Source: Candidatus Korarchaeum sp. (GTDB lineage Archaea > Korarchaeota > Korarchaeia > Korarchaeales > Korarchaeaceae). From it: a DNA stretch of 26,279 nt. A model generated the notes under the pieces. It saw only the letters and a list, made by a program, of their open reading frames with translations. It had not been told where the DNA came from and ran no database searches. Made by a program: the position numbers and the translations under genes. The DNA is taken from contig JAJHQZ010000014.1 in assembly GCA_020833055.1 (NCBI GenBank), forward strand, positions 1 to 26,279, given 5' to 3'. Position 1 is the first letter of the stretch. Each line of letters starts with the position of its first letter. Of the stretch, positions 2,423-11,265 are shown piece after piece.

Positions 2423-2968
2423 ATGAAGCGGGGAGCTACGCTCCTGGGCGCTTTAGCGATAATAGTCCCACTATCCTCAATATTCCTCTCCATATACCTC
2501 TCACCATGGTTCAGATGGGAGGAGAATGCTTTGAGCGATCTAGGGCATGCTTCTAGGAGCGGGGTGGCCCCTATCTTCAACCTAGGCCTCGTTACCGGGG
2601 GCCTCCTCTTCATGATCTTCTCCATAATGTACATGCACGGGAAGTACCCTCTCACATCTAAGCTCATGATAATAGCGTCCTACTTCCTGATACTGATAGG
2701 GACTTTCGATGAGATCTACGGCTTCCTCCATTTCTTAGTGAGCTTGATCTTCTTCATAATGCTCGCATTCGCAGCCTTAGCTTTCAGTTATGAATCCAAG
2801 AAGAGCTATCCTATCTTAGTGACCCTGATAATAGGGATCTCCTGGGCCCTGAATATGTCAGGGATCTGGAAGTGCGGCGCTGCCGTACCGGAGATGATAT
2901 CCGTGCTCGCCTCCCTAGTATGGTTCACCGATGCCCTGAGGAATCTGAGGAGATCTAGCTGGGGCTGA
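2423..2968 (+). CDS. DUF998 family integral membrane protein
   Basis: 181 aa with about six hydrophobic segments: residues 5-28, 52-72, 79-96, 99-120, 130-148 and 155-172. The motif ENALSDLGH after the first segment is characteristic of DUF998 (PF06197-type) proteins, which have no assigned biochemical role. The ATG follows a TATA-like T-tract at leaderless spacing. It is monocistronic: thrS is upstream on the same strand but has a likely terminator, and about 200 nt follow before the next gene. Family assignment is fairly secure; function is unknown. Confidence 0.8.
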   Translation: MKRGATLLGALAIIVPLSSIFLSIYLSPWFRWEENALSDLGHASRSGVAPIFNLGLVTGGLLFMIFSIMYMHGKYPLTSKLMIIASYFLILIGTFDEIYGFLHFLVSLIFFIMLAFAALAFSYESKKSYPILVTLIIGISWALNMSGIWKCGAAVPEMISVLASLVWFTDALRNLRRSSWG

Positions 2969-3156
2969 TCTCCTCATCATTAAATTTATTTAAAATAATC
3001 GTCAAAATTCTAAAAATTTACAATTGGTGGTTCATTAAGTTTCCATCGGAAAAGCTCATATAAAGTTGACTATCCGGGAGCTGCTGCTAATATATGAACT
3101 CGCATCATGATGAGAGCATGAATATCAAGATGATCCTGAGGAGCTCTCGAGCAAGA

Positions 3157-3163
3157 CTTAAAT
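3157..3163 (+). promoter_or_regulatory. TATA-like box of the dipeptide epimerase gene
   Basis: CTTAAAT centred about 25 nt before ATG 3185, consistent with a leaderless message. The upstream gap (2969-3156) is AT-rich and has a second TATA-like stretch at 3088-3097. Confidence 0.45.
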
Positions 3164-3184
3164 CTTAATTCTAGAGTGTTCGTT

Positions 3185-4306
3185 ATGCCCATCAGGAGGG
3201 TCGAGGTATATACCGTTGAGCTCCCCTACAAGAAGCCCTTCACAATATCTATGGGCACTTCCTACAGCAGTACGGATGTCGTAGTTAAGCTGATAGATGA
3301 TGAGGGCAATGTGGGTTGGGGGGAGGCATCCCCATCTAGGAGAGTGACTGGTGAGAGCGAGGACACTATATTATCGGCTATGAACGTCCTCGCCCCCCAA
3401 TTGATCAATGAGGATCCGCTAAATGTCGAGGGGATCGAGAGGAAGTTAGCAGGAGCTATCCTCGGAAACACTTCAGCGAAGCTGGCGCTCGAGATGGCTG
3501 TCTTCGACCTGAAGGGGAAGATACTTGGCGTGAGGGTGAGGGATCTTCTGGGAGGCTATAGAGATAGAGTGGAGACGGATTTCACCATAGGAATAATGTC
3601 GCCCGAGGAGATGGCCTCAGATGCCCTGAAGTACGTTGAGATGGGATTCAGGATATTGAAGCTCAAAGTGGGTCTGGATGTAGAGGAGGATATAGCGAGG
3701 GTCAAGGCCGTAAGGGATGCGGTGGGCAAGGACATAAGGATAAGGATAGATGCTAATCAGGGCTGGACAGTTAAGCAAGCTAAAAGGGCCCTCTCATCTA
3801 TGGAGAGATACGATGTGGAGCTCGCTGAACAGCCAGTGAAGTGGTACGATTATGAGGGGATGGCCGAGCTTACTAGAGTGAGTCCCATCCCCATAATGGC
3901 CGATGAATCGGTCCATTCCGCTAGAGATGCTCTCTTAGTTGCGAAGATGAGGGCCGCTGATTACATAAACATAAAGTTGACTAAGGCTGGTGGCCTCCTG
4001 GAGGCGAGGAGGATAGCAGCGATAAGCGAAGCCGCCGGGATACCTAATATGATAGGGTGCATGATGGAGGGAGGTATAAGCATAACTGCAGCAGTCCACT
4101 TCGCTACAGCCACTAGGAACGTGGTCACAACGGACCTAGACTCAGATATATCCCTGAAGGAGGACTTCGTAGAGGGAGGAGCTAAATGTGAAAAGGGCTT
4201 CAGGATACTGCCGGAGGGCCCCGGCTTAGGGGACTTGAGGGTCAAGGAGGGGATGCTAAAGCTTAGGGGAGTTTTCGAGGAAGGGAAAGTATCTACGCCT
4301 CTGTAG
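3185..4306 (+). CDS. Dipeptide epimerase (L-Ala-D/L-Glu epimerase-like, enolase superfamily)
   Basis: 373 aa. It should racemise an alpha carbon of a dipeptide by abstracting and returning a proton, with Mg2+ bound in the barrel. The muconate-lactonizing subgroup signature is complete: KLK at 159-161 (acid/base lysines), metal ligands D189 (IDANQGW), E215 (AEQP) and D240 (ADES), and the second acid/base lysine K264 (NIKLTKAGG). The spacing between these residues is close to that of the B. subtilis Ala-Glu epimerase. An N-terminal capping domain precedes residue 130. I chose ATG 3185 over GTG 3176 because the TATA box fits leaderless transcription there. The next gene starts 9 nt downstream, so they form an operon. 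With no peptidoglycan expected in an archaeon, the substrate is probably an imported dipeptide (inference from the Dpp locus alongside). Exact substrate cannot be read from sequence. Confidence 0.88.
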   Translation: MPIRRVEVYTVELPYKKPFTISMGTSYSSTDVVVKLIDDEGNVGWGEASPSRRVTGESEDTILSAMNVLAPQLINEDPLNVEGIERKLAGAILGNTSAKLALEMAVFDLKGKILGVRVRDLLGGYRDRVETDFTIGIMSPEEMASDALKYVEMGFRILKLKVGLDVEEDIARVKAVRDAVGKDIRIRIDANQGWTVKQAKRALSSMERYDVELAEQPVKWYDYEGMAELTRVSPIPIMADESVHSARDALLVAKMRAADYINIKLTKAGGLLEARRIAAISEAAGIPNMIGCMMEGGISITAAVHFATATRNVVTTDLDSDISLKEDFVEGGAKCEKGFRILPEGPGLGDLRVKEGMLKLRGVFEEGKVSTPL

Positions 4307-4315
4307 GGAGAGAGC

Positions 4316-5602
4316 ATGATAGAGTCATATTATCCTTCTGTATTCAAATGCAAGCCCTCCTTCCCCATAGTAGTCGATAGGGGGTTCAAAGCTGAGATAT
4401 GGACGAAGGATGGGAGGAGGTTCCTGGACTTCAGCGGGGCTGCCACCTCCTTAGGTCAGGCGCATCCCAAGGTAGTCGAGAGCATCAAGGAGCATGTGAA
4501 TAAAATAACAGGATTCTCAGGTCTATTGGCTCCAACGGAACCCTTCTTAAGGTTGGGTGAGGAACTGAAATCTATAGTGCCTATCAGGGACGCTTCAATA
4601 GCTTACGCTACTACAGGAAGTGAGGCGAGCGATTTCGCGATCCAGCTGGCTAAATACGTCACGAAGAGGAGCGTCATCCTCTCATTCTTCGGGGCCTATC
4701 ATGGTCTGACGGGCTACGCTCTGATGTCATCACCGACGGAGGGAATGAGGAGAGTGGCCCCTAGGGTCAGCGATACTCTATATGCGCCCTACCCCAACTG
4801 CCTCCCCTGCAAGATGAGATCCCTCCCATGCGATGATTGCGTGGATCTCTCAATCTCGTTCATAGAGGAGGAAATAATTGGGAGAGCTGTCGAGCCAGAG
4901 GATCTCGCGGCTATAATTGTGGAGCCTCTACAATCGCATGGGGGCATAATATTTCCGCCAGCGAGGTTCTTCCAAGAACTTAGGAGGATATCGAACGAGA
5001 CAGGGGCTCTCCTGATAGTGGATGAAGTCTATACCGGTTTCGGGAGGACGGGGAAGTGGTTCGGGATCGAGCACCATGGCGTCGAGCCCGATATAATGGT
5101 AATGGGTAAGGGGATGGGCGGGGGACTCCCCATAGCTGCCGTGGCCTTCAGGGGGAGCCTCCTGGAGGACTGGTACCTCTGCAGTGGGGGGAGCCTCGGG
5201 ACCTTCGCTGGGCACTACCTATCGGCAGTAGCTTCCCTGGCAACTATAGAGGCCATAAGGGAGGAGAATCTGATCGAGAACTCCAAGGAGAGGGGGGAGC
5301 AGTTGAGCTCATCCCTCAGGGAGTTCGTCGAGAGATATGACTTCCTGGTCGATTCCAGAGGAACGGGATGTGTTCAGGGAATAGAGTTCTATGAGAAAGG
5401 CAAACCTTCTAAGAAAGTAGCTGAGATGGTGAAATGGGCTTTATTCGATCGGGGTCTCCTAGCCATCCAGGTGGGGAGGCATCATAACGTGATCAAATTG
5501 ACCCCGCCCATAACGATAACAGAGGAGCAGATGGATGAGGCCATAAGGATTATTGAGGATTCCCTCAATGAGGTAAAAAGAGTTAGAAGAGATAGCTTAT
5601 GA
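4316..5602 (+). CDS. Class III PLP aminotransferase (4-aminobutyrate aminotransferase/amino-acid racemase type)
   Basis: 428 aa, cytosolic, PLP-dependent. Visible features: a TTGSEASD phosphate-binding segment near 99-106, VDEVYTGFGRTG with the pyridine-binding D236, and the Schiff-base lysine K265 in MGKGMGGG. The fold-type I class III family holds omega-aminotransferases as well as archaeal broad-range amino-acid racemases, and I cannot tell these apart by eye. An insertion at 161-176 carries four cysteines (C162, C165, C172, C175), a possible zinc site. ATG 4316 is preceded by GGGAGAG and lies 9 nt behind the dipeptide epimerase stop, so both are probably co-transcribed. Its 3' end overlaps the small ORF on the other strand by 20 nt and faces the dpp operon. 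Confidence 0.9.
   Translation: MIESYYPSVFKCKPSFPIVVDRGFKAEIWTKDGRRFLDFSGAATSLGQAHPKVVESIKEHVNKITGFSGLLAPTEPFLRLGEELKSIVPIRDASIAYATTGSEASDFAIQLAKYVTKRSVILSFFGAYHGLTGYALMSSPTEGMRRVAPRVSDTLYAPYPNCLPCKMRSLPCDDCVDLSISFIEEEIIGRAVEPEDLAAIIVEPLQSHGGIIFPPARFFQELRRISNETGALLIVDEVYTGFGRTGKWFGIEHHGVEPDIMVMGKGMGGGLPIAAVAFRGSLLEDWYLCSGGSLGTFAGHYLSAVASLATIEAIREENLIENSKERGEQLSSSLREFVERYDFLVDSRGTGCVQGIEFYEKGKPSKKVAEMVKWALFDRGLLAIQVGRHHNVIKLTPPITITEEQMDEAIRIIEDSLNEVKRVRRDSL
5575..5579 (-). terminator. Short T-tract after the dpp operon
   Basis: TTTTT on the minus strand, 4 nt past the stop of the small ORF at the end of the dpp operon. Archaeal termination often uses only such T runs; five is a weak signal. 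Confidence 0.3.
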
Positions 5603-5720
5603 GGATGACCAGCAGCACCATTATTATGATCATCAATAGCAGGGGGAGGAGGTGAGTCGTTAGAAGCGCTATCAGGAAAGCGATATAATCCTTCAAACTC
5701 AATTTTTGCTCATCGCTCAA
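5583..5720 (-). CDS. Small hydrophobic membrane protein at the end of the dpp operon
   Basis: 45 codons from TTG 5720, or 52 from TTG 5741 if translation begins inside dppF. The frame opens 2 nt after the dppF stop. It has a charged start (MSDEQKLSLKDY) and then about 33 almost wholly hydrophobic residues, ending in VILISYLF. This would be one long membrane helix or a tight two-helix hairpin around TTHLLP. Codon choice (CTC, ATA, ATC, AGC) matches the neighbours. There is no good Shine-Dalgarno, so coupling to dppF termination would be needed. The last 20 nt overlap the convergent aminotransferase. I do not recognise the family. It may be an accessory subunit of the importer or an unrelated passenger; a chance ORF remains possible. 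Confidence 0.5.
   Translation of the reverse strand: MSDEQKLSLKDYIAFLIALLTTHLLPLLLMIIIMVLLVILISYLF
5703..5707 (+). terminator. T-tract downstream of the aminotransferase
   Basis: TTTTT on the plus strand about 100 nt past the aminotransferase stop, in the convergent gap with dppF. Weak candidate for a plus-strand terminator. Confidence 0.25.
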
Positions 5721-5722
5721 GG

Positions 5723-6694
5723 TCAGCTCAACTCTCTCCAAAGATGGCATGCCACATAATGTCCCTCAGAGATCTCCTCGATCTTTGGCTCCTCAGTCCT
5801 GCATACTTCCTTAGCGTAAGGGCACCTCGTGTGGAACCTGCATCCCGATGGTGGATTCATAGGGCTCGGTATTTCGCCTAGAAGCAAGAGCTTCCTCCTG
5901 GATTTAACTAACTTGGGATCGGGGACAGGAATGGAGGAGATCAGTCCGATCGTATAAGGATGCCTCGGGTTCTCGAATAGTTCCTCGGTCGGGGCCACTT
6001 CCACCAACTTGCCCAAGTACATCACACCAACCCTATTACTAAAATGTCTGACTACAGCGAGATTATGACTTATCAGTAGGTATGTTAGTCCAAATTTTTC
6101 CTTCAAATCGGATAGCAAGTTCAATATTTTCGCTTGTACGCTGACGTCCAGGGCTGAAGTGGGTTCATCCAAGACTATGAACTTGGGCCTGAGTATGAGC
6201 GCTCTAGCTATTACTATCCTCTGCCTCTGTCCCCCTGAGAACTCATGAGGGTATCTATGCATGTGCTCGGGGTTCAGGCCCACTAGCTTTAACATCTCAC
6301 TCACCCTCTCCTCCACTTCCTTCCCCCTTAGCCCCTCATGGATGATCAGGGGCTCACCGACTATATCCTTGACCTTCTTCTTCGGATGTAGGGCCTTGTA
6401 CGGGTCTTGGAAGACTATCTGCATCTCCCTCCTCAGGGGAAGGAGCTCCTTACCCCTCAGTTCAGTTATATCCCTCCCATCGAAGAATATCCTCCCGGAC
6501 GTAGGTTCTATCAACTTGAGGACAACTCTCCCCAGCGTTGTTTTCCCGCTCCCAGACTCACCAACCAGTCCAAAAGTCTCTCCTTTCCCTATATCCATCG
6601 ATACTCCATCCACAGCTCTTATCTCCCCGATAACTTTCATCAGCACGCCTCCCCTCACGGGGAAGTACTTCCTGATATCCTGGAGCCTGAGCAT
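5723..6694 (-). CDS. dppF: Dipeptide/oligopeptide ABC transporter ATP-binding protein DppF
   Basis: 323 aa ATPase, the second of two nucleotide-binding subunits of the peptide importer. Walker A is GESGSGKTT, the signature is FSGGQRQR, and Walker B is [11 protein letters not shown]. The C-terminal oligo/dipeptide-transporter extension has [12 protein letters not shown], a [13 protein letters not shown] segment and four cysteines ([16 protein letters not shown]). Known DppD/DppF homologues carry an iron-sulfur cluster at such a site. ATG 6703 overlaps the dppD stop, but the Shine-Dalgarno-like GGGAGATGAT is best spaced for ATG 6694, which I prefer. It is fifth in dppABCDF and translationally coupled to dppD. 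Confidence 0.95.
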
Positions 6695-6699
6695 GATTA

Positions 6700-7659
6700 T
6701 CATCTCCCATAGAGGAAGCAGGAGACGAGATGATCATTTCCCACATTTAGGAGGTTCGGAACTTCCTTATCACAGATATCCATCCTCTTCGGGCATCTGG
6801 GGTGGAAGAGGCAACCGGGAGGAGGATTGAGGAGGGAGGGTATCTCCCCTTCCATGGAGAAGAGCCTACTTCCGGAGGATTTCGATCCGGGGATCGATCT
6901 GAGGAGGCCCACTGTGTATGGATGGAGGGGGTTCTCGAATAGTTCCTCAGTCCTAGCTACCTCAACTATCCTCCCAGCGTACATAACGGCTATCCTATCT
7001 GATATCTCAGCGGCTAGAGCTAAATCATGCGTTATATAGATGACGCTGGTGTTGAACTCCCTGATGAGCTCCTTGAAGAGATTCATTATCTGGGCTTGGA
7101 TAGTGACATCCAGCGCAGAGGTGGGCTCGTCAGCTATCATTAGCTTCGGTCTCAGGGCTAAAGCCATCGATATCACTATTCTCTGAGCCATCCCTCCGCT
7201 CAATTCATGCGGGTAGCTCCTATAAATCCTCTCCGGATCGGGAAGGCCAACTTTCCTGAACATATCCAGTACTCTCTCCCTCGCCTCCTCCTTACTCATA
7301 CTCTCATGAGCTAGGAAGGCTTCAGCGACCTGATCCCCGACTTGTATGACGGGATTGAGCGCTGCTTTCGGCTCCTGAAATATCATAGATATATCCCTCC
7401 CTCTTATCTTAAGGATCTCACTCATCGGAAGTTTTAAGAGGTCCTTTCCCTCGAAGATCACCTCTCCTCCAGCTATCTCAGCGTTCTCATCCAATAACCT
7501 CATTATAGTGAGCCCCGTCACCGTTTTCCCGCTGCCAGTCTCTCCCACTAATCCTAAGACCTCGCCGTAGTTCACTGAGAAGCTCACGCCATCAACAGCT
7601 CTCACGATTCCCCTCAACGTGTGGAATCTGACCTTGAGGTCCCTAACATCGAGTAGCAT
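6700..7659 (-). CDS. dppD: Dipeptide/oligopeptide ABC transporter ATP-binding protein DppD
   Basis: 319 aa. Walker A is GETGSGKT, the signature is LSGGMAQR, and Walker B is [12 protein letters not shown]. It has the peptide-transporter C-terminal extension [13 protein letters not shown] with [13 protein letters not shown], and cysteines in [12 protein letters not shown] and VSCF, the likely cluster ligands. It pairs with DppF to energise uptake on the cytoplasmic face. The ATG lies 3 nt after the dppC stop, with AGGAG about 8 nt before it, so translation is coupled. Its last bases overlap an upstream in-frame ATG of dppF. Confidence 0.95.
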
Positions 7660-7662
7660 AGG

Positions 7663-8529
7663 CTATCTCCTCGCCCTCACATTCATTATATCGTTTATCC
7701 CGTCCCCGAGTAAGTTGAACCCCATCGTAGCCAGCAGTATCGCGAAGCCAGGGAACGTGGAGACCCACCACTGCTCAGTTATGAACCTCCTCCCCTCGCT
7801 CACCATGACGCCCCACTCGGGAGTCGGCGGTTGAACTCCGAGGCCCAGGAAGCCCAGGGCAGCTGCCGTCAGTATGGTCCCACCCATATCCAGAGTCGCC
7901 CTCACTACCAGAGTGGGTATGGCCATGGGCAACACATGCCTTACGATTATCCTTATGTCGCTAGCCCCTACCGCCCTCGCAGCCTCTATATACGTCTCCT
8001 CCCTTATCTGAAGAGCCATAGCCCTAGCGAGTCTAGCGTAGAACACCCAATCGACGAAAGCTATGGCCATCATCGTGTTGAACAGCCCGGGGCCCAAGGC
8101 GGCTGCTACAGCGAGCGCCAATATCAGCCTAGGGAAGGCCATGAACATGTCAGTTATTCTCATCAATATTTCATCAATTTTTCCCCCAAAATATCCTGAT
8201 ACTAATCCTATTAAGGTCCCTATAGTCAGAGAAATTGCAATGACTGCTACAGCTATGAACAGGGAGATCCTAGACCCCCAGATGACCCTGCTGAAGATAT
8301 CCCTCCCCAGCTGATCAGTGCCGAAGGGGTGCTCCATGCTCGGCGGTAGCAACCTCTTGCTCATATCAGTTTTCGTAGGGTCTTCGGTAGCTATTATAGG
8401 CGCTAATAGTGCTATCATTATCAGCAGGAGTGTTATGGAGATCCCTAGAATAGTGAGAGGGCTCCTCCTTATCAAAATCATCGTGAACTTGAAGTCCTCG
8501 GATCTGAAGTACTCATTTATCTTGAACAA
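7663..8529 (-). CDS. dppC: Dipeptide/oligopeptide ABC transporter permease DppC
   Basis: 288 aa from TTG 8529; a longer frame begins at ATG 8547. I prefer TTG because GAGGTG sits exactly 6 nt upstream, the same arrangement as thrS and dppA, whereas ATG 8547 has no Shine-Dalgarno. One N-terminal helix (about 17-42) precedes the permease core with GTDQLGRDIFSRVIWG, five more helices, and the EAA loop EAARAVGASD...HVLP that docks to the ATPases. ALGFLGLGVQPPTPEWG is typical of DppC/OppC. It overlaps the dppB stop if read from ATG 8547, and lies 10 nt after it from the TTG. Confidence 0.93.
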   Translation of the reverse strand: MFKINEYFRSEDFKFTMILIRRSPLTILGISITLLLIMIALLAPIIATEDPTKTDMSKRLLPPSMEHPFGTDQLGRDIFSRVIWGSRISLFIAVAVIAISLTIGTLIGLVSGYFGGKIDEILMRITDMFMAFPRLILALAVAAALGPGLFNTMMAIAFVDWVFYARLARAMALQIREETYIEAARAVGASDIRIIVRHVLPMAIPTLVVRATLDMGGTILTAAALGFLGLGVQPPTPEWGVMVSEGRRFITEQWWVSTFPGFAILLATMGFNLLGDGINDIMNVRARR

Positions 8530-8539
8530 ATCGATCACC

Positions 8540-9553
8540 TCATGCATATCTTATCCTAGGATCTAGGAAGGCGTAGAGGATATCAACTATCAGATTGGCT
8601 AGCGAGTAAACTATTGCTATTAATAGAGTCGACCCCATAACTGCCATGAAATCCACAGATAGGAAGGCTCCTGTGGAATATCTTCCCAATCCAGGCCATG
8701 CAAATATAGTTTCCGTCAAAATAGCACCTTCCAATAGGCTACCATATGCCATACCTATCACTGTGGTCGTCGGGATGAGGGCATTCCTCAATGCGTGCCT
8801 GAATAGGACTATCCTCTCAGCTAGCCCTTTACTCCTAGCGGCCTTTATGAAATCCTGCGTCAGCACTTCCAGGAGGGCGGTCCTCGTTATCCTCGCTATC
8901 GAGGCTGAAGCGTAGTATCCCAAAACGAATGATGGTAATGCTAGGTGCCATAGAGCATTAATGAATGCCTCGAAATTCCCAGTTATCAAGCTATCTATTG
9001 TCAAGAGGCCCGTTATCCTGGGGGGCTCGGGTATCCCTGGATCGAGCCTCCCGGGCCCCGGGAATATGCCTAACTTATAATAGAGGACGAACAGGAGTAT
9101 CAGACCCAGCCAGAAGACGGGCATGCTCACGCCCATGAGCGCGAATATCCTAGAAATATGATCGGGCCACTTGTCCTTCTTAACAGCTGATATTATTCCC
9201 AAGGGAATCCCTATAGCTATAGCCACTATTATAGCTGCGGTGGCGAGCTCTATCGTAGCTGGGAAGAAGTAGAGGAGGTCTTCCATCACCGGGTTGTTCG
9301 TCTTTATCGATCTCCCCAGATCCCCCCTGACCACTTTGTATATATAGTCGAAGAACTGCTCATGTAAGGGTTTATCGAATCCCCACTCCCTCCTTATCTT
9401 CTCCACGAGCTCCGGGGAAGCCTGAGGGCCCAGTATAGCTCCGATAGGATCCGCCGGGATCACATGAGATACTACAAATGTTATCACTATAATTCCAAAT
9501 AGGACAAAAATCATTAAGGCTAATCTCCTTATAATATAAGTCCTGAGATCCAT
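8540..9553 (-). CDS. dppB: Dipeptide/oligopeptide ABC transporter permease DppB
   Basis: 337 aa, the first of two permease subunits, with about six membrane helices. The first is near residues 10-30, followed by the extracytoplasmic DPIGAILGPQASPE region of the family. The EAA loop is KAARSKGL...HALRNALIP, and GAILTETIFAWPGLG is very close to bacterial DppB. ATG 9553 has AAGGAGGATCTCT directly upstream. It is separated from dppA by 37 nt that hold a T6 run on the minus strand, so expression of the permease may be set below that of the binding protein. Confidence 0.95.
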   Translation of the reverse strand: MDLRTYIIRRLALMIFVLFGIIVITFVVSHVIPADPIGAILGPQASPELVEKIRREWGFDKPLHEQFFDYIYKVVRGDLGRSIKTNNPVMEDLLYFFPATIELATAAIIVAIAIGIPLGIISAVKKDKWPDHISRIFALMGVSMPVFWLGLILLFVLYYKLGIFPGPGRLDPGIPEPPRITGLLTIDSLITGNFEAFINALWHLALPSFVLGYYASASIARITRTALLEVLTQDFIKAARSKGLAERIVLFRHALRNALIPTTTVIGMAYGSLLEGAILTETIFAWPGLGRYSTGAFLSVDFMAVMGSTLLIAIVYSLANLIVDILYAFLDPRIRYA

Positions 9554-9590: not shown

Positions 9591-11252
9591 TTATCCCTTA
9601 CTGACCTTGGAGAGATCCAAGTAGTAGAACGTGGGATCGGGCAGCCAGTTCCTCACATAATCCCTAACAGCCTGCTGAGCGACTGTCTGATAGAGCATGA
9701 CGTAAGGACCATGATCCAGTATGTAATCCGTTAGATTCAGGTACATCTGTTCCCTCTTCTTAGTATCCATCTCCACGCTAGCCTTCTCAGCCAAGTCTGC
9801 CGCGTAGTCATCATACCAGCTGTTCCTCCAAGCTAACTGCTTTATCCTATAGTTGGCGAAGGCCATAGCATTGCTGTCCGGGTCAGGATAATCTGAGCCC
9901 CATCCTGCTAAGACCATCTGAAGTCCCTGCTTCCTGTACTTCTCATACATCATAGATTGCGTCATCTGAACTATTTTCACCGTGATACCGCACTCAGCCA
10001 GATCGGCCTGTATCTTAGTCGCTATATCTATCTGCGGATAAGTCGGCGGTGTCGTCAACTCTATCGTGAAGCCGTTCGGATAACCGGCTTTAGCTAGTAG
10101 CTCCTTCGCTTTATTAACATCCTTATAGTAGGGAGTCTTCGGGTTGGCACCTAGCAACCCCTTCGGAATCACTGTCTGCCACTTTATAGCGGCTCCCTTC
10201 AATATCCCATTCACTATACCATCGTAATCTATGCAGTACCTTATAGCATCCCTCACCTCCTCCTTATCCAAGGGTTTCACGGCTACGTTCATCCCTATGT
10301 AGACGTTATGCAGCCTCTCAGCCCTAACGATCTGAATCCCGGGCTGCCCCTCGATCTGCTTTATCTGATCTGGGGTTAAGTCAGTTGCAACATCTACATC
10401 CCCTTTCTGTATGAGTAGGAGCTGATCCGTAGGCTCAGCGACATGCTTTATTATGACAGTCTTGACGCGGGGCTGCCCAGGCTTCCAATAGTATGGGTTG
10501 GCCCTCAGGATGAACTGGGACTCCCTATCCCATTTCTCCAGCACGAAGGGACCGCTTCCAGCGCTGTGATCGTCCAACCAAGCGCTTCCCATATCTCCAT
10601 TCTTCTCGTGGGCCTCTACAACTTTCTTATCCACGATGCTCGATGTCGTGAAGGTCAAGACGCTGAGGAAGAAGCTGGGAGCAACTGTCTTATTGAGCTT
10701 TATCCTGACAGTATAATCATCGATCTTCTCTATCTGATCCGGGGTCTTCAGGAATGGCGCAAGCACTGAGTAGGCCGTTTGCTTCAACTTAACTACCCTC
10801 TGAAGGGAATAAACGACATCATCAGCTGTTAGCGGGTTTCCGCTGGCGAACTTGATGCCCTTCCTTATGTAAAACGTCCAAGTCATCCCATCGGGACTTA
10901 CCTCCCATCTCTCAGCGACTTCTGGCTTCACGTTTATCAGATCGGGGAGCTCGAAGTCAACGAGTTTATCGTATAACTGATTCGTGACGAAGCAAGACGT
11001 GAATTCATAAGCTCTCGCAGGATCGAGTGAAACAGCATCGGATGTATCCATGGCGATTATCAGAGTATCAGCAGGAGTCTTCATGGCAGCAGTCGTAGTG
11101 GTCGGTGTTACAGTCGGTGTAACTGTCTGAACCACTGTCGTGGTCACTGTAGTCGTGACAGTAGTCACCTTGCCGGGGCCCGCGGCGAAATAACCGATGA
11201 CAGCACCCACTATGAAGAGGAGTATGACTAAGGCTAGATCGCGGGCATTCAT
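9591..11252 (-). CDS. dppA: Membrane-anchored dipeptide/oligopeptide-binding protein DppA (SBP family 5)
   Basis: 553 aa, captures peptides outside the cell and hands them to DppBC. An N-terminal hydrophobic helix (about 6-24, LALVILLFIVGAVIGYF) has no lipobox cysteine, so the protein is probably anchored by this helix. A Thr-rich stalk follows (about 29-54, 16 of 26 residues Thr), as in archaeal surface-binding proteins that are often O-glycosylated. The family 5 core includes VAERWEVSPDGMTWTFYIRKG, SGNPLTADDVVYSLQRV, and a C-terminal PDPTFYYLDLSKV. ATG 11252 is preceded by GGAGGTG at 6 nt; the longer frame's GTG 11261 lies within that Shine-Dalgarno. First gene of the dpp operon, with a strong TATA box. 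Confidence 0.95.
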   Translation of the reverse strand: MNARDLALVILLFIVGAVIGYFAAGPGKVTTVTTTVTTTVVQTVTPTVTPTTTTAAMKTPADTLIIAMDTSDAVSLDPARAYEFTSCFVTNQLYDKLVDFELPDLINVKPEVAERWEVSPDGMTWTFYIRKGIKFASGNPLTADDVVYSLQRVVKLKQTAYSVLAPFLKTPDQIEKIDDYTVRIKLNKTVAPSFFLSVLTFTTSSIVDKKVVEAHEKNGDMGSAWLDDHSAGSGPFVLEKWDRESQFILRANPYYWKPGQPRVKTVIIKHVAEPTDQLLLIQKGDVDVATDLTPDQIKQIEGQPGIQIVRAERLHNVYIGMNVAVKPLDKEEVRDAIRYCIDYDGIVNGILKGAAIKWQTVIPKGLLGANPKTPYYKDVNKAKELLAKAGYPNGFTIELTTPPTYPQIDIATKIQADLAECGITVKIVQMTQSMMYEKYRKQGLQMVLAGWGSDYPDPDSNAMAFANYRIKQLAWRNSWYDDYAADLAEKASVEMDTKKREQMYLNLTDYILDHGPYVMLYQTVAQQAVRDYVRNWLPDPTFYYLDLSKVSKG

Positions 11253-11258
11253 TACGGG

Positions 11259-11265
11259 CACCTCC
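11259..11265 (-). promoter_or_regulatory. Ribosome binding site that sets the dppA start
   Basis: GGAGGTG on the minus strand, 6 nt before ATG 11252. The alternative GTG start at 11261 is the last three bases of this element. Confidence 0.75.

Follow-up and report, generated by a model that had tools for sequence, protein, structure and literature searches.

A conserved small membrane protein encoded last in one archaeal lineage of dpp operons is probably an additional part of the peptide importer

In archaea that ferment peptides, among them the uncultivated Korarchaeota and the Asgard relatives of eukaryotes, peptide importers play a central role. They are regarded as five-protein machines; we know of no sixth small membrane subunit in the canonical DppABCDF and OppABCDF systems. 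KdpF and CbiN are small hydrophobic subunits encoded within transporter operons, and AcrZ is encoded away from acrAB. Modulation of transporters by small membrane proteins is well established, with AcrZ, MgtU and MgtS as examples (PMC10710835), and a mycobacterial lipid importer of ABC type contains LucB as a small subunit that had stayed hidden (PMC10710835, PMC9882608). In a literature search that covered papers outside subscription, no such protein was found described for an Opp/Dpp importer.

We analyzed a stretch of 26,279 nucleotides (the window), which is contig C14 in a 1.39 Mb archaeal assembly assigned to Candidatus Korarchaeum. It contains an operon of the Opp/Dpp-type ABC importer class, with the A-B-C-D-F gene order and oligo_HPY C-termini in both ATPases (Pfam). 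Directly behind its last gene and on the same strand lies a small hydrophobic frame, as the first-pass annotation of this DNA had reported. The features are as follows.

5583..5750, minus strand: small membrane-protein gene (sORF), based on the open frame, homologs, dN/dS and codon use
5652..5696, minus strand: conserved core of the small protein, residues 19–33, LKDYIAFLIALLTTH, ending just before LLP (alignments, AlphaFold)
5589..5651, minus strand: predicted membrane helix, residues 34–54, reaching the C-terminus (AlphaFold, hydropathy)
5723..6703, minus strand: dppF, importer ATPase (Pfam ABC_tran and oligo_HPY); its 3' end overlaps the longest sORF form
6700..7659, minus strand: dppD, ATPase (Pfam)
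7663..8547, minus strand: dppC, permease (Pfam BPD_transp_1 and OppC_N)
8540..9553, minus strand: dppB, permease (Pfam, NCBIfam)
9591..11261, minus strand: dppA, substrate-binding protein (Pfam SBP_bac_5; NCBIfam DppA-like, below the curated cut-off)
4316..5602, plus strand: class-III aminotransferase, convergent, a neighbor in Korarchaeota only

An enolase-superfamily gene and the class-III aminotransferase gene adjoin the importer (window 3176–5602). The former comes nearest to L-Ala-D/L-Glu (dipeptide) epimerases, with a match under the curated cut-off, and the presence of both genes beside the importer suggests peptide use. In a near-identical genome (G010), an extra 850-aa frame is found between the enolase-superfamily gene and a DUF998 gene (L021:11299-13851); the window (2968–3176) is without it.

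Three start codons are available to the small frame: ATG 5750 (55 codons), TTG 5741 (52 codons, the start chosen previously) and TTG 5720 (45 codons), the last of which is two bases past the dppF stop. Which of these is the true start is uncertain; relatives mostly start 8–14 residues ahead of a conserved K-D-Y, and the TTG 5720 form is nearest to this. Translation would yield a protein of about 45–55 aa. The first-pass annotation had described a hydrophobic frame of 45–52 codons whose codon choice resembles that of neighboring genes, and this description holds, with the 55-codon form as an addition. The best 19-residue Kyte-Doolittle mean is 3.3, the highest among the 91 window ORFs of 40–110 aa (a mean of at least 2.5 is reached by only 3/91), and the CAI-like score is 0.652, within the range of the 20 large genes of the window (0.61–0.75), with only 0.02% of random synonymous versions of the sORF scoring as high. 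The 20-nt overlap of its 3' end with the convergent aminotransferase gene also proved exact, but a 28-nt overlap of the longest form (ATG 5750) with dppF had been overlooked.

A search of 61 genomes detected intact homologs in 11 of 15 genus mates of the window's genome and in one further genus, at 50–98% identity over the matched part. The orthologous dppF is absent from the four genus mates without a match (G005, G007, G011 and G013) too, and all genus genomes that have this dppF also have the small gene (12/12). A profile built from 14 sequences matched significantly in a distant family of archaea, designated f42, and in the Baldrarchaeota contig JAEOSG010000114.1, which belongs to genome G395. 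NCBI places Baldrarchaeota in Promethearchaeati (Asgard archaea), and f42 is called Asgard here because it shares its phylum with G395. After addition of the f42 and Baldrarchaeota sequences, the enlarged profile matched in 43 of the 227 Asgard-phylum genomes; one of these matches (G543, E 0.009) falls inside a 972-codon frame and was discounted as chance. A third profile added no further group among 394 archaeal genomes, and weak matches in other archaea (E 0.002–0.1) were set aside, some of them falling in frames interrupted by stops or within longer, unrelated ORFs. The searches thus covered 394 archaeal genomes, the 227 genomes of the Asgard phylum and, for bacteria, one narrow pattern scan of contigs, in which every confirmed match was archaeal. 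Intact-frame homologs were found at 56 places in 55 genomes: 12 of these genomes belong to the window's genus and 42 to the Asgard phylum, and G022, from a sister genus, contributes two operons. In some genomes, the small gene may already stand as a hypothetical protein.

The core of the family has the signature D-Y-x-A...T-x-[FL]-L-P. Among 38 aligned members, D21, A28, L35 and P36 are invariant and A24, I27 and T32 are nearly so. The N-terminal tail has 8–53 residues and is in most cases strongly acidic, the median net charge being -5.5, with a frequent D-W-x-x-Y-like motif in f42, whereas the C-terminal tail has 1–10 residues (median 2). AlphaFold models for the window and Baldrarchaeota proteins, computed as single chains from 10 sequences only and with a pTM of about 0.4, agree in showing a helix at residues 19–31, a break and then a helix of 21–24 residues, with block pLDDT of 84–95 over the helices in both. 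The break is predicted at T-H or T-N directly before L-L-P. By prediction, the protein has the size and single span of small accessory proteins of transporters such as AcrZ, KdpF and MgtU (less than about 100 residues, one membrane helix). It had previously been suggested to be a single-helix companion of the importer; the idea of an operon-specific companion is strongly supported by the linkage and selection described below, and the predicted layout is more precisely a short helix, a break and a membrane helix. The single predicted membrane helix ends within a few residues of the C-terminus and follows a soluble N-terminal part, a layout like that of tail-anchored proteins, and no signal peptide was seen on inspection by eye. 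The small protein thus looks tail-anchored, in which case its acidic tail would be cytoplasmic, near the DppD and DppF ATPases.

We propose that the small protein is an accessory subunit of this Dpp importer lineage, with a stabilizing or regulatory role and the layout described here, and we assign this reading a probability of roughly 0.7. DppABCDF operons of this archaeal lineage would yield the protein as their last product, in step with the importer. Its acidic N-terminal tail would be cytoplasmic and close to the two ATPases. The conserved D-Y core would form a short helix on the surface of the membrane, hinged immediately ahead of L-L-P, and the C-terminal helix would span the membrane and pack on the DppB and DppC permeases. 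We infer that the protein binds the importer and that it may make the complex more stable or adjust its ATPase cycle. Such effects on their transporters are established or proposed for AcrZ, MgtU and LucB. A more specific proposal, which we put forward tentatively and at somewhat less than even odds, is that it is a sixth integral Dpp subunit common to Korarchaeota and Asgard archaea, anchored by its C-terminus, in which the acidic tail and the interfacial helix would gate or tune DppD and DppF, a kind of regulation not previously described.

In many Korarchaeota, the start codon of the small gene overlaps the dppF stop; six genomes have ATGCCTGA, with a G-rich element upstream. Such an arrangement fits translational coupling. 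It should also be considered whether the protein is a factor for stability or turnover and not a subunit, which would bind the importer transiently and either protect it from a membrane protease or deliver it to one, in the manner of MgtU and MgtR. The small size, the single membrane helix and the genetic linkage would fit this role equally well, and examples are documented among bacterial transporters (PMC10710835). However, the overlap with dppF points to synthesis alongside the importer and not to conditional control, and MgtU-type models remained unmatched (one member, E 0.45, which is chance level), so we regard a turnover factor as unlikely. More generally, sequence searches of Pfam, NCBIfam and PDB yielded matches at chance level only (e.g., PsaI, E 0.42), and membership in a known family was rejected. 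Against Pfam and NCBIfam, the window protein had no match, other members had scattered weak ones, the best with E 0.0019, and the Pfam and NCBIfam models of MgtU, KdpF, AcrZ and other small-protein families did not recruit the protein.

The accessory-subunit reading is supported by genetic linkage to one transporter, although linkage of genes is no proof of binding. At 56/56 places, a dppF gene of an Opp/Dpp-type importer immediately precedes the small gene in the same orientation, and the two genes often overlap; at one of the 42 Asgard places (L251) the frame was not picked by the sequence motif and adjacency was taken from profile-match coordinates. In neighborhood maps of Korarchaeota the small gene is always at the end of the five-gene dpp operon, and G022 has two such operons with one copy in each. 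The gene downstream differs, being the aminotransferase in Korarchaeota and other genes in Asgard archaea. Thus, the constant partner is the importer, and a link to the convergent aminotransferase could be ruled out. The same observations bear on the idea that this is a membrane protein serving some other purpose, simply co-transcribed with the dpp genes. Operons do carry such passengers, but linkage at every place over two phyla, the absence of the small gene from genomes without this dppF lineage and the different non-dpp neighbors in the two phyla make this quite improbable.

The small gene does not follow every dppF. The DNA behind about 60 other dppF paralogs of the window's phylum was read and contained no homolog, some of these genes being followed by unrelated membrane proteins, and, among the Asgard dppF genes sampled, those that fall outside gene-bearing lineages also lacked it. 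Most Opp/Dpp importers manage with no protein of this kind, other dpp operons in the same genomes among them, which counts against the accessory-subunit reading.

Some of these other operons end in membrane genes of their own. Another Dpp/Opp operon of the window's genome (L088, G000:C5:20765-21765) ends in a protein of 171–194 aa, as do L086 (G010) and L089 (G011); it overlaps dppF by about 19 nt and has a hydrophobic helix at each end. It may be a further membrane companion specific to its operon, and its sequence is unrelated to that of the small protein. Membrane proteins of 87–227 aa, some of them weakly similar to each other, are located directly behind or overlap further dppF genes of the same family (L068, L072 (G020, G016), L079 (G018) and L080 (G017)). 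It may be that tail-end membrane genes are a habit of these dpp operons.

In a DppF tree of 85 sequences, the gene-bearing dppF genes did not form one clade. Presence of the small gene required three changes on this tree vs 21.8 in shuffles (0/500 as low), a count that leans partly on weakly supported branches, and the strongly supported branches are compatible with a single origin of the gene. The Baldrarchaeota DppF grouped with gene-bearing DppFs of Korarchaeota (moderate support). This placement raises the possibility of transfer, and the dpp operon, including the small gene, may have moved between phyla as one unit. We also considered the C-terminal tail of DppF as a sign of interaction. 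It is longer in most of the gene-bearing Korarchaeota group (6–13 residues) and in Asgard f42 (22–25 residues), but other gene-bearing DppFs have tails of 2–3 residues and some gene-free DppFs have 9–13 or more. Tail length is therefore not consistent with gene presence and is suggestive at most. A conserved tail, LDFG[KRE]S.Q.EYA, occurs in the f42 DppFs of gene-bearing operons (L179–L186) but in none of the other DppFs in the comparison.

A small hydrophobic toxin or a leader peptide would likewise be short and hydrophobic, but the last gene of an operon is no leader, and strict operon linkage together with a conserved D-Y...T..LP core is, to our knowledge, untypical of small hydrophobic toxins, making either very improbable.

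Selection on the small gene was assessed in Korarchaeota over 31 core codons, which were picked to exclude the dppF overlap and most of the aminotransferase overlap. Most pairs with measurable dS had dN/dS of 0.03–0.3 and two pairs were outside this range (0.35 and 0.40), with synonymous sites near saturation in most pairs. Pooled pN/pS was 0.29 in Korarchaeota and 0.34 in Asgard archaea. By these measures, purifying selection on the small gene is strong. A short frame in a tight convergent junction, as found in Korarchaeota, might be an untranslated opposite-strand tail arising by chance, but dN/dS well below 1, frames that stay intact at identities down to about 25–30%, the conserved core and the codon use refute this on sequence grounds and leave it a negligible probability. 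The first-pass annotation had proposed low dN/dS as a check and had named unconserved or broken frames in relatives as evidence against the gene; the opposite was found, and its view of an unannotated small membrane protein gene is upheld. Judged from conservation, purifying selection and linkage to dppF, the sORF is a real, evolutionarily conserved gene, and its product is probably a further component of the importer that has so far gone undescribed.

The outcome is a defined family with a testable sequence signature, and it illustrates that conserved genes can hide in tightly packed convergent junctions. If the proposed role is true, a conserved sixth membrane component changes models of importer assembly and control, and the ABC peptide importer joins the transporters that have small-protein partners.

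Compared with known systems, the other five genes of the operon are the standard set of canonical DppABCDF and OppABCDF. The small protein resembles AcrZ, the E. coli partner of AcrB, in having about 50 residues, one membrane helix, conservation and, as proposed here, a multi-subunit transporter partner. However, AcrZ binds an RND pump, its binding is proven whereas ours is proposed, and the two do not match in sequence. LucB, which like LucA belongs to the mycobacterial Mce1 system, is also an overlooked small membrane protein of an ABC-type importer and a proposed regulator or scaffold (PMC9882608, PMC10710835), but it has four membrane helices, was discovered by cryo-EM and belongs to an MCE-type importer. 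MgtU, MgtR and MgtS are small membrane proteins that affect transporter stability, but their partners are P-type ATPases and the family match to the small protein is at chance level only. KdpF and CbiN share with it a small hydrophobic character and a place in a transporter operon, but serve other transporter classes, with two spans in CbiN and no sequence relation found. Although by sequence a member of none of these families, the small protein may, by analogy, work like AcrZ, MgtU or LucB.
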